Positions 1 through 7,128 of a stretch of DNA of 64,000 nucleotides are shown piece by piece. The notes beneath the pieces were generated by a model, which had not been told where the DNA came from, did not search any database, and worked only from the letters and a program-made list of their open reading frames with translations. The translations under genes and the position numbers were made by a program. Origin of the DNA: Halobaculum sp. CBA1158 (GTDB lineage Archaea > Halobacteriota > Halobacteria > Halobacteriales > Haloferacaceae); NCBI RefSeq assembly GCF_021431925.1, contig NZ_CP090371.1:2232001-2296000 (forward strand). The letters run 5' to 3'. Each line of letters begins with the position of its first letter. The first letter of the stretch is position 1.

Positions 1-316
1 CGACCGTCCGTGCGGGCGCGAGGTGGTCGACCGCGCCGTGGGGAAGCCCGAGGACGAGGACGCTGACCGCCAGCGGGGCGTACCGAACCCACGCCGGTAC
101 CGCGGGGGCGACCCCGAGTACGGCCGCGAGCGCCGCCGCGGCGGCGATCGTGCCCACGGCGACCCACCCGGGGCGACACCCGAGCGCGAGCATGACGCCG
201 CGAACCGGCGAGTCTCCGGCGGCGGAGGCCGTCGGTCGGGCCCTGACGCCGTCGGTCGTCCGGCTGTCGGTCGTCCGGCCGTCGATCGGCTCGCCGCCGT
301 CGACCTCCCCCGTCAT
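1..316 (-). CDS. blh: Brp/Blh family beta-carotene 15,15'-dioxygenase, N-terminal part (runs off window)
   Basis: The ATG at 316 opens a frame that stays open to the window edge, giving about 105 residues of the N-terminus. After an Asp/Gly/Thr-rich leader of about 40 residues comes a hydrophobic segment and the sequence GLPHGAVDHLA, which matches the first histidine motif of the Brp/Blh membrane enzymes that cleave beta-carotene to retinal. It starts 4 nt after the crtY stop, so the two are almost certainly co-transcribed and translationally linked. The leader contains a small duplication (RTTDSRTTDG). A second ATG at 193 would remove the acidic leader. The family call rests on one motif plus strong context: opsin, lycopene cyclase and retinal-forming enzyme in one run. 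The C-terminal histidines are outside the window. Confidence 0.85.
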   Translation of the reverse strand, partial: MTGEVDGGEPIDGRTTDSRTTDGVRARPTASAAGDSPVRGVMLALGCRPGWVAVGTIAAAAALAAVLGVAPAVPAWVRYAPLAVSVLVLGLPHGAVDHLAPARTV

Positions 317-1387: not shown

Positions 1388-2134
1388 TCAGTCGGCCGTG
1401 GCGGCGTCGCCAGTCGCGCTGCCCGCGGCGTCGAGCACCTCGCGGCTCGACAGCAGGATGATCCCGAAGCCGACCTTGGCTACGAGGTCGAGGACCATGA
1501 AGCCCGCCGTCTCGATGTTCAGCGAGACGATGCCGAGGCCCTCGGTGCCGACGATCCACCAGACCGGATACACGAGCCAGACCACGACGATCAGCGTGCG
1601 GAGCGTGCTGAACGTCGAAGCGGCGTCGCCGCTGAGCTGGCTGGCCTTCTCTCCGAGGGAGCCGTACAGCATGTACAGCAGCACCAGCAGGAAGCCGGTG
1701 GAGACGCCCCACCACACCAGGCGACGGGCCCCCGCGCCGAGCGCGCCGGGACCGGCCGACAGCGTCGCCACGGCACCCGTGCCGATCATCAGCATGTCGA
1801 GCCCGACGAGCGAGGACAGCTCGTTACGGTTTGCCCCCGCGAGCAGGCCCAAGTCGATGAGCAGCAGCGGTGTGGTGAAGAACCAGTCCGTGTATCGCGC
1901 CCAGTAGATGGGAACCTCTTCGCCGCCGAGTTCCACCATCGTTAGGCCGAACCCGAGTGCCATCGCCAGATAGTTCACGAACGCGATCGCCGTGATGAAT
2001 ATCGTGACGATGTAGAACTCTTGGCGGCGTCTGTCCGTTTCGCCCCAACCCCTGGCGATGAAGTACAACATCCCCAGGAACATTCCGAGCGTCCCGATCC
2101 ACAGCCAAATGCCTTCGCTGCCAGGTTGTGGCAT
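1388..2134 (-). CDS. bop: bacteriorhodopsin, light-driven proton pump (cruxrhodopsin-like)
   Basis: A 248-residue seven-helix retinal protein. The helix C motif is [16 protein letters not shown]83 corresponds to the proton acceptor D85 of Halobacterium bacteriorhodopsin and D94 to the donor D96, so it should pump protons rather than chloride. E198 and E208 match the proton-release glutamates E194 and E204. D216 and the retinal Schiff-base lysine K220 ([10 protein letters not shown]) match D212 and K216. The short N-terminus ([10 protein letters not shown]) and much of the sequence resemble Haloarcula cruxrhodopsins as I recall them. Thr82 replaces the Ala84 of the classical protein. It follows bat by 47 nt and is followed by crtY and blh, which make its chromophore. 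It acts in the cytoplasmic membrane. Confidence 0.97.
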
Positions 2135-2181
2135 GATGCATGTGTCCTTTAGGACGTTAAACGGGTAAGTGAACTACACAA
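2135..2181 (-). promoter_or_regulatory. bat-bop intergenic spacer, likely bop promoter
   Basis: This 47-nt spacer is the only room for a separate bop promoter. It is AT-richer than its surroundings. On the minus strand a TTTAA core lies about 22-26 nt before the bop ATG, where a TATA box for a nearly leaderless transcript would lie. Upstream activator sites would have to overlap the end of bat. I cannot assign a Bat-binding site with confidence. Confidence 0.4.
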
Positions 2182-3966
2182 CTAGTTTGGATCTGCGGGA
2201 GCCGTCGGCGATTCTGTCCGGTCGGGATCGACGAACGCACCCACGAGCTTTCGCTGTGCGGCCCGGAGGTGCTGATGGAACGTCGACCGACACACGCCCA
2301 TGGACTCCGCGAGGTCGTCGCCGTCGACGTCGCGGGACCACTCGAAGTAGCCCGTCGTGTACGCGCGCACGAGGGCGGCGCGCTGGCGCTCGGTCAGGTC
2401 GCGCTCGACGGCGGCGACGAACTCCGGCCGGGTCCGACCGCGACGCTCTCGGCGACGGTAGCCGGTCAGCTCGGCCGACTCGAACCGCTCGGTGACGGCC
2501 GCCACCAGCGACTGCGCCAGCGCCTCGCGCGCGACGACGACCGTGACGCGGGCGGTGTCGCCGTCGACCGTTACGGCGTCGAGTTCGCCGCCGTGCTCGG
2601 CGACCAGCGGCCGGAGCGGCGGCGCTTCGATCGACACCTCGACGACCGAGCTCTCGCCGTCCGTCTCGAGTATCGAGTGGACGGCGACCCCGTCGACTCC
2701 CACGGATTCGAGGCTGTCCGCGGTCGAGGCCGACCCGTCGAGCGAGGTCTCGAACAGCATCGACGGCCGAGCGCGGTCGCTGAGGCCGCCGAGATACCGC
2801 ATCGTGCGGCCCGCGTCGCCGGCGAGTTCGACCAGCGGATGGTCACCGATTCCGAACCGCAGTTCGAACGCCCCCTCCTCCTGCAGCGTCCGCCGGCTCT
2901 CGATGGCGTTGATCCCGGTGGCGACCGAGCGTCCCAGCGCCGTCAACACGGCGTGTTCGTCGCTCGCGAAGCCGTCATTGGATCGGGTGTACACCCCGAT
3001 GGCCCCGTACGTCGCGTCGCCGTAGTGGAGCGGGATCGCCGCGATCGCCGTCGCCTCGGTGTCCGCGTCCTCGACCGACGCCGTCCGGACGAAGCGCTCC
3101 TCGAGCGCCGCCGACGCCGCCGCGGAGGTGGGATCGTCGACCGCCTCACCCTCGGTCGCGCTCCCGTCCGTCGCGTCCCCCTCGGTCGGGGCGTTCCCCT
3201 CGGTCGGGGCGTTCCCGACGGGGATCCGGTCACGGTCGCCGTCGCCGTCGGATCCCCCGGTGGCGGCGGTGACGGTCAGTTCCTCCGTCCGGGGATCGTA
3301 CCTGCCGATCCAGGCACCGGCGTACGTCCGCTCGATTCGCTCGACCACGGTCCGTTCGAGCCCCTCCCGCGAGGACGCGCCCGTCACCGCCTCGGTCACG
3401 TCGACGACGACCCCGTCGAGCCGCTGGAGCAGGCGGCGCTGGGCGACGCGCTCGCGCTCGATCCGCCCGGCGCGTTCGGTGGCCGCACGCTCGGCGCGCT
3501 TGCGTCGGGTCACGTCCTGCTGGAAGCCGACGTAGTTGACGACGCGTCCCTCGTCGTCCCGCAGCGGTGCGATGGTGACCTCGTTCCAGAACAGTTCGCC
3601 GTCGCGACGGTAGTTGCGGATCTCGACGGTCGTCGCCTCCCCGTTCCGGATCGCCGTTCGCATGCGCTCGACCGGCTCCTCCCGGGTGGCCTCGCCCTGG
3701 AGGAACCGGCAGTTCCGGCCGACCGCATACTCCGGGGGATATCCCGTGATCCGCTCGAACGCGGCGTTGGCGTACACCAGCGGCATCTCGGGTTCGGTCG
3801 CGTCGGCTATCGTGATGCCGACGGGGGCCTCGTCCATCGCCCGCGTCTTCAGTAGCTCGTCGACCGCCTCCGTGCTCGCCGGGTTCGAGGGGCGCGACGC
3901 CGCCGACTGCGTCGGCTCCGGTGAGTCGGATCCCGCGCTGCCGCGACCGGACCCATGAGATGTCAT
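2182..3966 (-). CDS. bat: Bat-type transcriptional activator of bop with LOV-like PAS, GAF and HTH_10 domains
   Basis: From the ATG at 3966 the protein has 594 residues; an ATG two codons upstream (3972) is equally possible. A PAS domain spans about 44-157 and contains GRNCRFLQG, with the cysteine at about 86. It also has the later NYRRDG, FWN and VGFQ elements, which is the residue set that binds flavin in LOV photoreceptors. A GAF domain follows at about 184-359. It is interrupted by a low-complexity insert with the repeat NAPTEG (about 251-273). The C-terminus (about 519-579) is the HTH_10 domain of the bacterio-opsin activator family (LTERQRAALVRAY, then SMGVCRSTFHQHL). It lies directly upstream of bop on the same strand and should control it. 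Light or redox sensing is inferred. Confidence 0.92.
   Translation of the reverse strand: MTSHGSGRGSAGSDSPEPTQSAASRPSNPASTEAVDELLKTRAMDEAPVGITIADATEPEMPLVYANAAFERITGYPPEYAVGRNCRFLQGEATREEPVERMRTAIRNGEATTVEIRNYRRDGELFWNEVTIAPLRDDEGRVVNYVGFQQDVTRRKRAERAATERAGRIERERVAQRRLLQRLDGVVVDVTEAVTGASSREGLERTVVERIERTYAGAWIGRYDPRTEELTVTAATGGSDGDGDRDRIPVGNAPTEGNAPTEGDATDGSATEGEAVDDPTSAAASAALEERFVRTASVEDADTEATAIAAIPLHYGDATYGAIGVYTRSNDGFASDEHAVLTALGRSVATGINAIESRRTLQEEGAFELRFGIGDHPLVELAGDAGRTMRYLGGLSDRARPSMLFETSLDGSASTADSLESVGVDGVAVHSILETDGESSVVEVSIEAPPLRPLVAEHGGELDAVTVDGDTARVTVVVAREALAQSLVAAVTERFESAELTGYRRRERRGRTRPEFVAAVERDLTERQRAALVRAYTTGYFEWSRDVDGDDLAESMGVCRSTFHQHLRAAQRKLVGAFVDPDRTESPTAPADPN
3178..3217. repeat. 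18-bp tandem repeat inside bat
   Basis: Two full copies and a partial copy of an 18-bp unit read ccctcggtcggggcgttc on the plus strand. They encode the NAPTEG duplication in the linker of the Bat GAF domain. The repeat is in frame, so copy-number slippage would change only linker length. Confidence 0.75.
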
Positions 3967-4147
3967 AGCCATCCAAGGGGACGGAATCATAAAACGACCG
4001 GGGCGAATCCGGCCGACGACTCCGGTCAATCCGACCGCCGTGAGCGTCCGTTTCGGGCGTTTTTGGCGACCGCGAGCGGGCGTTCAGGTGTTCAGCGTCC
4101 GCGAGCGGGCGTGTCGAACGTCGCGATCGGCCGCGACCGGCCGATCT

Positions 4148-5709: not shown

Positions 5710-5739
5710 GTGATTATATCCCTTAGATCGGTGCATATC

Positions 5740-5752
5740 ATCAATACTATAT
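5740..5752 (+). promoter_or_regulatory. candidate promoter of second gdh with shared motif
   Basis: ATCAATAC (5740-5747) runs directly into the TATA-like CTATAT (5747-5752). This would place transcription start near 5778 and leave a leader of about 35 nt before the ATG at 5812. The same 8-nt word is part of the palindrome in the opposite gdh promoter, which suggests common control. Confidence 0.4.
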
Positions 5753-5811
5753 CGGTCAACGGTCGAGGCGTCGGTATCGACCCCGCCGAATGCGGCGGGC
5801 GACACACAATC

Positions 5812-7128
5812 ATGTCTACCGGAACCGCAGACTCCGCCGAGAAGCGCGCGAACTCCGAGCAACAGCAGGAGCCGGAAACAGCGTTGGAGACGGCGCGGCG
5901 ACAGTTGGAGCACGCCGCGGCGCACCTCGACGTGGACTCGGGCGTTATCAAGCGTCTCAAGCACCCGACGACGGTTCATCGGGTCGCGGTTCCGCTGGAG
6001 CGCGACGACGGCTCAGTCGAGGTGTTCACGGGCTACCGTGCCCAACACGACGACGTCCGCGGGCCGTACAAGGGCGGCCTCCGGTTCCACCCCGACGTGA
6101 GCGAGGAGGAGTGCGTCGGACTGTCGATGTGGATGACCTGGAAGTGCGCCGTGATGGATCTGCCCTTCGGCGGCGGGAAGGGCGGCGTCGTCGTGAACCC
6201 GAAGGAGCTGTCGACCGACGAGAAAGAGCGACTCACCCGGCGGTTCGCCGAGGAACTGCGAAAGTTCGTCGGCCCCAAGAAGGACATCCCCGCGCCCGAC
6301 ATGGGAACGGACGCCCAGACGATGGCGTGGTTCATGGACGCGTACTCGATGCAGGAGGGCGAGACGATTCCGGGCGTCGTCACGGGCAAGCCTCCGGTCG
6401 TCGGCGGCTCCGAGGGCCGCGAGGAGGCTCCCGGTCGCTCGGTCGCGATCGTCACGCGCGAGGCGGCGGAGTACTACGACTACGACCTCGACGGCCTCAC
6501 CGTCGCCGTCCAGGGGTACGGCTCGGTCGGCGCGAACGCGGCGCGCCTGCTCGACGACTGGGGCGCGGACGTGGTCGCCGTCTCCGACACCGGGGGCGCG
6601 GTTCACGACCCCACGGGGCTCGACACCCACGCGATCCCGAGCTTCGCCGAGGAGCCGAACGCCGTGACCGACCGCGCCGACGAGGTCGACGGGGTCGACC
6701 TGCTCGACGACGGGAGCGACATCCTCGAACTCGACGTGGACGTGCTTATCCCGGCGGCCGTCGGCAACGTCATCACCGTCGACAACGCGAACGACGTGCG
6801 CGCCGACGTCGTCGTCGAGGGGGCGAACGGCCCGACGACCTCTGCCGCCGACGGGATCCTCGCCGAGCGCGGCGTCCACGTCATCCCGGACATCCTCGCG
6901 AACGCCGGCGGCGTCACCGTCAGCTACTTCGAGTGGCTTCAGGACATCAACCGCCGCACGTGGACGCTGGAGCAGGTCCACTCCGAGTTGGAGTCGGAGA
7001 TGCTCTCGGCGTGGAACGACGTGCGCGCGGAGGTCGAGGCGAAGGAGATAACCTGGCGCGACGCGGCGTACGTCGTCGCGCTCGACCGCATCGCGGACGC
7101 GAAGAGCGTCCGCGGCCTGTGGCCCTGA
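5812..7128 (+). CDS. gdhB: glutamate dehydrogenase, second paralogue
   Basis: A 438-residue enzyme of the same family as the divergent gene at 4148. It has [13 protein letters not shown] and [10 protein letters not shown] in the substrate domain and [15 protein letters not shown] in the dinucleotide domain. The N-terminus carries an acidic, Gln-rich extension of about 20 residues. An in-frame ATG at 5710 lies upstream of the probable promoter, so 5812 is preferred. It is followed by a convergent CitE-like lyase and a MaoC hydratase. Glutamate supply is part of the haloarchaeal methylaspartate cycle, so this copy may serve acetyl-CoA assimilation, with the other serving nitrogen metabolism. 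That split is inference. Confidence 0.95.

Follow-up and report, generated by a model that had tools for sequence, protein, structure and literature searches.

The window analyzed here, a 64,000-nt stretch of the Halobaculum sp. CBA1158 contig NZ_CP090371.1 (positions 2,232,001 to 2,296,000 of the forward strand), contains a rhodopsin locus in which bat, bop, a lycopene cyclase-domain gene and a Brp/Blh-type gene follow one another in that order on one strand (Table 1). Read on the minus strand, the bat frame runs from an ATG at 3966 to a TAG stop at 2182 with no internal stops. An earlier note on this DNA had placed a Bat regulator of a rhodopsin locus at 2182-3966, which is exactly this 594-residue frame, and the rhodopsin locus is real, with a Bac_rhodopsin match at 2134-1388. 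The GAF and HTH_10 domains that it named were both recovered by Pfam, together with a BAT domain between them that it had left unnamed. The full order is PAS_9 (residues 48-153), GAF_2, BAT and HTH_10 (boundaries in Table 1), which is the architecture of the Bat family, and the protein is also linked to bop, whose ATG lies 47 nt past the bat stop. The closest solved relatives of the opsin are bacteriorhodopsin (4pxk) and cruxrhodopsin-3 (4jr8), and we take its key residues to be those of a proton pump. The open frame at 321-1322 was considered as Brp/Blh and ruled out, since family models identify it as the lycopene cyclase-domain gene. Upstream of bat lies a glutamate dehydrogenase gene (5407-4148, minus strand), head to head with a second glutamate dehydrogenase-like gene (5710-7128, plus strand); the former matches the GdhB_Halo model below its cut-off, and the latter was assigned by eye.

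Table 1. Features of the bat-bop locus, in window coordinates.
Feature	Position	Strand	Basis
bat, Bat-family one-component regulator (LOV-GAF-BAT-HTH_10), 594 aa	2182..3966	-	translation, Pfam, tree
LOV domain, residues 41-162	3481..3846	-	Pfam, PDB sequence search, clade alignment, model
Cys86 codon TGC, adduct-forming position of LOV domains	3709..3711	-	sequence, state table
GAF domain, residues 198-352; long modeled helix 153-196 joins LOV to GAF	2911..3375	-	Pfam, model
BAT domain PF15915, residues 368-517	2416..2865	-	Pfam
HTH_10 DNA-binding domain, residues 524-575	2242..2397	-	Pfam
bop, bacteriorhodopsin-type opsin, 248 aa, proton-pump residues (presumed roles)	1388..2134	-	Bac_rhodopsin Pfam match, sequence
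Lycopene cyclase-domain gene (CarR_dom TIGR03462), likely start 1139, 272 aa	321..1139	-	family models
End of Brp/Blh-type gene (PF15461 match G000:C1:2231195-2232067), across the left edge of the window	1..67	-	Pfam
TTTTAT, possible TATA-like sequence lying 23-28 nt upstream of the bat ATG	3989..3994	-	
Putative activator site CCAAACTAGTTG, roughly 52 nt upstream of the bop ATG, spanning the bat stop TAG	2179..2190	-	
CTTA, possible TATA-like spot of the bop promoter, suggested by a conserved cgcTTA downstream of the element	2166..2169	-	

The N-terminal domain of the window Bat had been described as a flavin-type LOV domain on the strength of four motifs, all of which are present: GRNCRFLQG (83-91, containing Cys86), NYRRDG (118-123), FWN (126-128) and VGFQ (146-149). 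Residues, family models, modeled fold and conservation all back that description. Ten of ten LOV signature residues are found, the adduct-forming cysteine of GxNCRFLQ being Cys86 and the nine others G83, N85, R87, F88, L89, Q90, N118, N128 and Q149; in YtvA numbering, the available text of PMC4682037 gives the conserved LOV residues as G59, N61, R63, F64, L65, Q66, N94, N104 and Q123. A phmmer search of the PDB returned 6hmj as the best chain (E 2.4e-36), followed by LOV chains, far beyond chance, and the NCBIfam model YtvA_fam matched with 142.9 bits (E 1.2e-41), which is less than its whole-protein cut-off of 250, with one domain matching. A structure model built from 66 window and locus sequences has a mean pLDDT of 84.5, with 85-96 per ten-residue block over residues 71-170 and 59-78 over residues 41-70. 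This model has one helix that begins at residue 86 and another, long one (153-196) that runs into the GAF domain; the best solved match is the LOV domain of 9vf7 (Z 19.0, rmsd 1.4 Å over 137 residues), and the top fold matches, by Foldseek likewise, are LOV, so that the predicted model has a LOV/PAS fold. Among 26 of the 28 members of the window clade described below, mean pairwise identity is 82.3% for LOV, 76.5% for HTH_10, 49.6% for GAF and 49.1% for BAT, and 63 of the 122 LOV positions (41-162) are invariant. Taken together, these predicted features make a strong case for a LOV domain.

We searched 391 Halobacteria genomes with the window protein, bop and the H. salinarum-type Bat, and obtained, from 137 genomes, 146 distinct open frames that encode both LOV and BAT-HTH domains; these are best hits or opsin neighbors and not a random sample. 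The LOV profile used to collect them was built from Cys-type rows, and of 154 distinct frames 10 that had no LOV match, some being truncated copies, were left out. No borderline Bats were dropped, because no Bat frame had a LOV match below 60 bits. At the adduct position, 109 of the 146 LOV-type Bats have Cys, 27 Pro and 10 His, and the pocket residues labeled N, N94, Q and Q123 (two Asn, two Gln) are kept in 146/146. With Cys86 in place, the window protein differs from the Cys-less form known as BAT-LOV*. All 27 Pro-type Bats come from one genus, Halorubrum. The His-type Bats are the ten best matches to the H. salinarum-type Bat (E 1.8e-226 or less), and one of their genomes (G018) encodes an opsin identical over residues 3-262 to the H. 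salinarum sequence. Six of the 137 genomes hold both kinds of Bat: Cys and His together in G138, G293, G134, G239 and G148, and Cys and Pro in G354, which is matched to Halorubrum kocurii.

R103 of the window protein aligns in the PDB search with an arginine of phototropin LOV domains that presumably contacts the FMN phosphate; it is kept in 86/109 Cys-type Bats (41/46 of those adjacent to bop), 0/10 His-type and 0/27 Pro-type Bats. Tyr145 occupies a flavin-side position where phototropin-type LOV domains have Phe. Tyr is found there in 78/109 Cys-type Bats and also in 6hmj, an RNA-binding LOV receptor, and a tyrosine beside the flavin could quench it. At the position of window Phe70, all 27 Pro-type Bats have Trp, and the Cys- and His-types have Phe or Tyr. 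This Trp is perhaps the Trp172 that the available text of PMC4682037 links to quenching.

A tree of the 146 Bats was made with the adduct column removed. The three states need two changes on it, His and Pro each forming one side of a branch; the Pro rows neighbor three Cys rows (support 100) and the His rows 13 Cys rows (97). A single lineage of Cys-less Bats was rejected when His and Pro rows were held together (p-AU 1e-10, 61 of 146 rows). In a LOV-only tree with eight outgroup LOV domains, His and Pro rows again stand beside Cys rows (93/82 and 90/94), although two of the eight outgroup rows lack the cysteine (Ala, Gly) and the 6hmj row is placed among the Bats, so that this rooting is only moderate. 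Since both Cys-less groups are nested with Cys rows, loss of the cysteine in the sampled Bat family is most simply explained as derived, by two separate losses. This bears on the question, raised in the portion of PMC4682037 available, of whether LOV proteins lacking the cysteine represent the ancestral state; among the Bats sampled here, such forms seem to be derived, on two occasions. The window protein falls in a distinct 28-row clade (99) in which Cys is present in 28/28. It was considered as the ortholog of H. salinarum Bat and rejected as such, the tree putting the H. salinarum-type rows in a 10-row clade of their own.

The linkage of the window Bat to bop is conserved. Bop lies directly downstream of Bat in 27/28 members of the window clade, and in the whole sample 46 Bats, spread over 17 genera, are directly followed by an opsin frame (same strand, at most 350 nt between open frames), every one of the opsins scoring at least 264 bits against window bop. 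All 46 Bats are Cys-type. On the Bat tree, this gene order requires 9 changes; the cysteine changed just twice, and the association of Cys with linkage therefore rests on few independent events. The other types are arranged differently: a pump-type opsin is found in the flank of 8/10 His-type Bats, on the opposite strand, and of 15/27 Pro-type Bats, upstream on the same strand, 14 of these 15 at 1.2-2.7 kb. On a quick opsin tree the type of Bat partner needs only two changes, and Bat and opsin thus seem to travel together. The idea that Cys marks only bop-linked Bats was rejected: within the fetched flanks, the shorter side of which measured 1.3-5.2 kb, 50/109 Cys-type Bats have no pump-type opsin (46 no opsin, four a low-scoring one), and Cys is therefore not special to bop. 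One locus (L123, in G085) carries a tandem pair of pump-type opsin genes with equal scores, about 1.2 kb apart.

The junction between bat and bop also carries a putative cis-element, whose 13-nt consensus CCCAACTAGTTGG includes the palindrome CAACTAGTTG. The string CCNNACTAGTTG has one copy in the whole 3.32-Mb assembly, at this junction (2179-2190). Across 11 genomes of the same genus, the five that have the locus each contain exactly one CCNNACTAGTTG, at the bat-bop junction; of the six that lack it, four have no copy and two (G145 and G222) have one, and there neither bop nor Bat was matched in the 3 kb fetched around it (L328, L329). When the pattern was reversed as a control, each genome had 5 to 16 copies. 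Haloarchaea tend to avoid CTAG, which may explain the rarity of CCNNACTAGTTG. An exact ACTAGTT occurs 49-55 nt before the predicted start codon of 32/187 opsins (31/160 of those with at least 200 bits, plus one weaker), and no copy was seen in the 240 nt read upstream of bat itself.

For a broader count, we allowed at most four mismatches to the 13-nt consensus, itself drawn partly from the sequences counted, at -47 to -57 in the 159 opsins with enough sequence; G018, which is H. salinarum-like, was left out, its bop promoter being cut by a contig end at 82 nt. The element precedes 43/46 opsins that lie directly behind a Cys-Bat (0.25 expected from shuffling, 2 in an off-position window) and 7/13 opsins otherwise linked to a Cys-Bat (shuffle 0.05, off-position 0). 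It was counted in 5/15 Pro-Bat-linked opsins (0.05 and 0), in 3/8 His-Bat-linked opsins (0.05 and 2), hardly above the off-position control, and in 19/77 opsins whose flank contains no LOV-Bat (0.5 and 1). Pro-linked opsins share a similar string, for example CCTGACTGGGTTG, at -51. The upstream activator sequence of H. salinarum has a consensus close to ACCcnactagTTnG.

LOV domains in Bat-like proteins had already been published, as the earlier note cautioned. In Losi et al. (2014, PMC4844311), 167 LOV proteins were reported from archaea, with an HTH in 30% of the halobacterial ones; the authors pointed out that one LOV-HTH arrangement resembles Bat and that the Bat of H. salinarum is without the cysteine. 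A Pro-type BAT-LOV* from Halorubrum was investigated as a sensor of redox and light by Yee et al. (2015, PMC4682037). Presence alone is therefore not new. The LOV-HTH proteins of PMC4844311 resemble the window Bat in having an intact-Cys LOV, a GAF and a C-terminal HTH in Halobacteria, whereas the available text there gives no gene neighborhood, bop tie or cis-element. Halorubrum BAT-LOV* shares the family and the flavin pocket and, in the available text, differs in having Pro for Cys and a reported slow photoreduction (PMC4682037); our 27 Pro-type rows further differ from the window in having Trp for Phe70 and R103 in none. H. salinarum Bat is likewise described as a bop activator with PAS/LOV fold, GAF, BAT and HTH_10 domains (PMC3184054, PMC2253796; partial texts), but it has His at the Cys position, only 36% identity to the window protein and a weak N-terminal receiver-like match (23.2 bits, under the Pfam cut-off), and its locus has brp-bat on the strand opposite bop with brz between. 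In that species, according to the available text of PMC3184054, bat, brz and brb were all required for light to enhance the output of a bop reporter; since that Bat has no cysteine, light control does not need it. A 2007 comparison of haloarchaeal bop regions found gene order variable, and the words LOV and PAS are absent from the text available (PMC1885257). ALovD-1 is a haloarchaeal Cys-LOV like that of the window, with a slow photocycle measured up to 3 M salt, but belongs to a Halonotius-like histidine kinase and not to a Bat regulator (Valle et al. 2025, PMC12202551, as far as its text was available); its main text has no words beginning with bacterio-, HTH or opsin, and one beginning with rhodopsin, in the introduction.

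The window genome has a histidine kinase of its own with a LOV-like domain (L002, HATPase_c, G000:C1:801374-801790), whose PAS reads GRNPRMLQ, a Cys-to-Pro form outside the Bat family. Among solved structures, 6hmj is the closest to the window LOV by sequence and shares the flavin-side Tyr, but its output is RNA binding; the output of YtvA is STAS, and both 6hmj and the YtvA family are of bacterial origin.

Our best reading, probable on what the sequence and its comparisons offer, is that the window Bat is a dedicated one-component blue-light activator of bop. Its observed part comprises the domain order, the full LOV residue set and the LOV fold of the model, as well as the conserved linkage to bop and the conserved, near-unique site whose spacing from bop is fixed. 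The remaining steps would be as follows. The canonical LOV domain of a soluble Bat would bind a flavin, and blue light would drive an adduct between Cys86 and that flavin. The signal would pass via helix 153-196 and then the GAF and BAT domains to a presumably dimeric HTH_10 head, and activated Bat would bind the palindromic site at about -52 and turn on bop, light thereby raising rather than lowering its expression. A further signal, for example redox state, may enter through the GAF domain. Direct switching of the pump by blue light is plausible, and it is better founded now that the bop linkage and the near-unique upstream element have been found.

It is possible, though we think it unlikely, that the window Bat is mainly a flavin redox or oxygen sensor, a role already suggested for Cys-less BAT-LOV*; it would signal through reduction of its flavin when oxygen is low, with Cys86 an electron donor or a relic and light of minor importance. 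In the available texts, induction of bop by the classical Bat is reported for low oxygen (PMC2253796), and a change of shape upon reduction for the Cys-less BAT-LOV* (PMC4682037); in the pocket, N, Q, N94 and Q123 are retained by 146/146 Bats, Cys or not. Against this reading, the cysteine is kept in 28/28 members of the window clade, in which GAF and BAT show only about 50% identity. The arginine presumed to contact the FMN phosphate is, moreover, absent along with the cysteine (0/37 Cys-less forms), which suggests two separate working modes. Another reading is a photoactive LOV domain working with the opposite sign, light relieving or blocking activation (for instance, to spare retinal), or serving chiefly targets other than bop. 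Nothing in the sequence fixes the sign, and the 50/109 Cys-type Bats without a pump-type opsin in the fetched flank would accord with other targets; the fixed bop linkage and the once-per-genome CCNNACTAGTTG at the junction in 5/5 genomes with the locus speak against it, and we consider this improbable. That the LOV domain takes neither light nor redox input and is a structural dimerization module, with the GAF domain as the sensor, seems very improbable: a GAF domain is indeed there, but LOV is the most conserved domain and GAF among the least.

Extending the blue-light reading to the family, we offer a tentative and rather doubtful generalization. Haloarchaea may have two kinds of pump locus, one light-gated, with a Cys-LOV Bat directly upstream of bop and a CAACTAGTTG site, the other redox-gated, with a His- or Pro-Bat beside an H. 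salinarum- or Halorubrum-type opsin, and some cells may run both. The cysteine would then be an evolutionary toggle between light and redox, switched off twice, and the textbook Bat a derived, blinded form.

Searches of open-license PubMed Central main texts gave no account of the linkage between Cys-type Bat and bop or of a separate 28-member clade, nor of the two-change tree, the Cys/Pro/His counts, the genomes with both kinds of Bat or the palindromic site. Direct light sensing by Bat has been suggested and not definitively established, in the wording available from PMC4682037, and with no such cysteine in its Bat, the textbook species is poorly suited to answering the question. The main worth of the window Bat is that this old question becomes testable: a full-LOV Bat with a fixed bop partner, a near-unique putative site and relatives holding both kinds brings it within reach of one mutation. 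If the proposal holds, a halophilic one-component blue-light switch would be a useful haloarchaeal tool. In one member of the window clade, G226 (L176/L031), a Cys-LOV Bat has been kept although the flank fetched around it contains no opsin, which offers a natural test of what else such a Bat controls.
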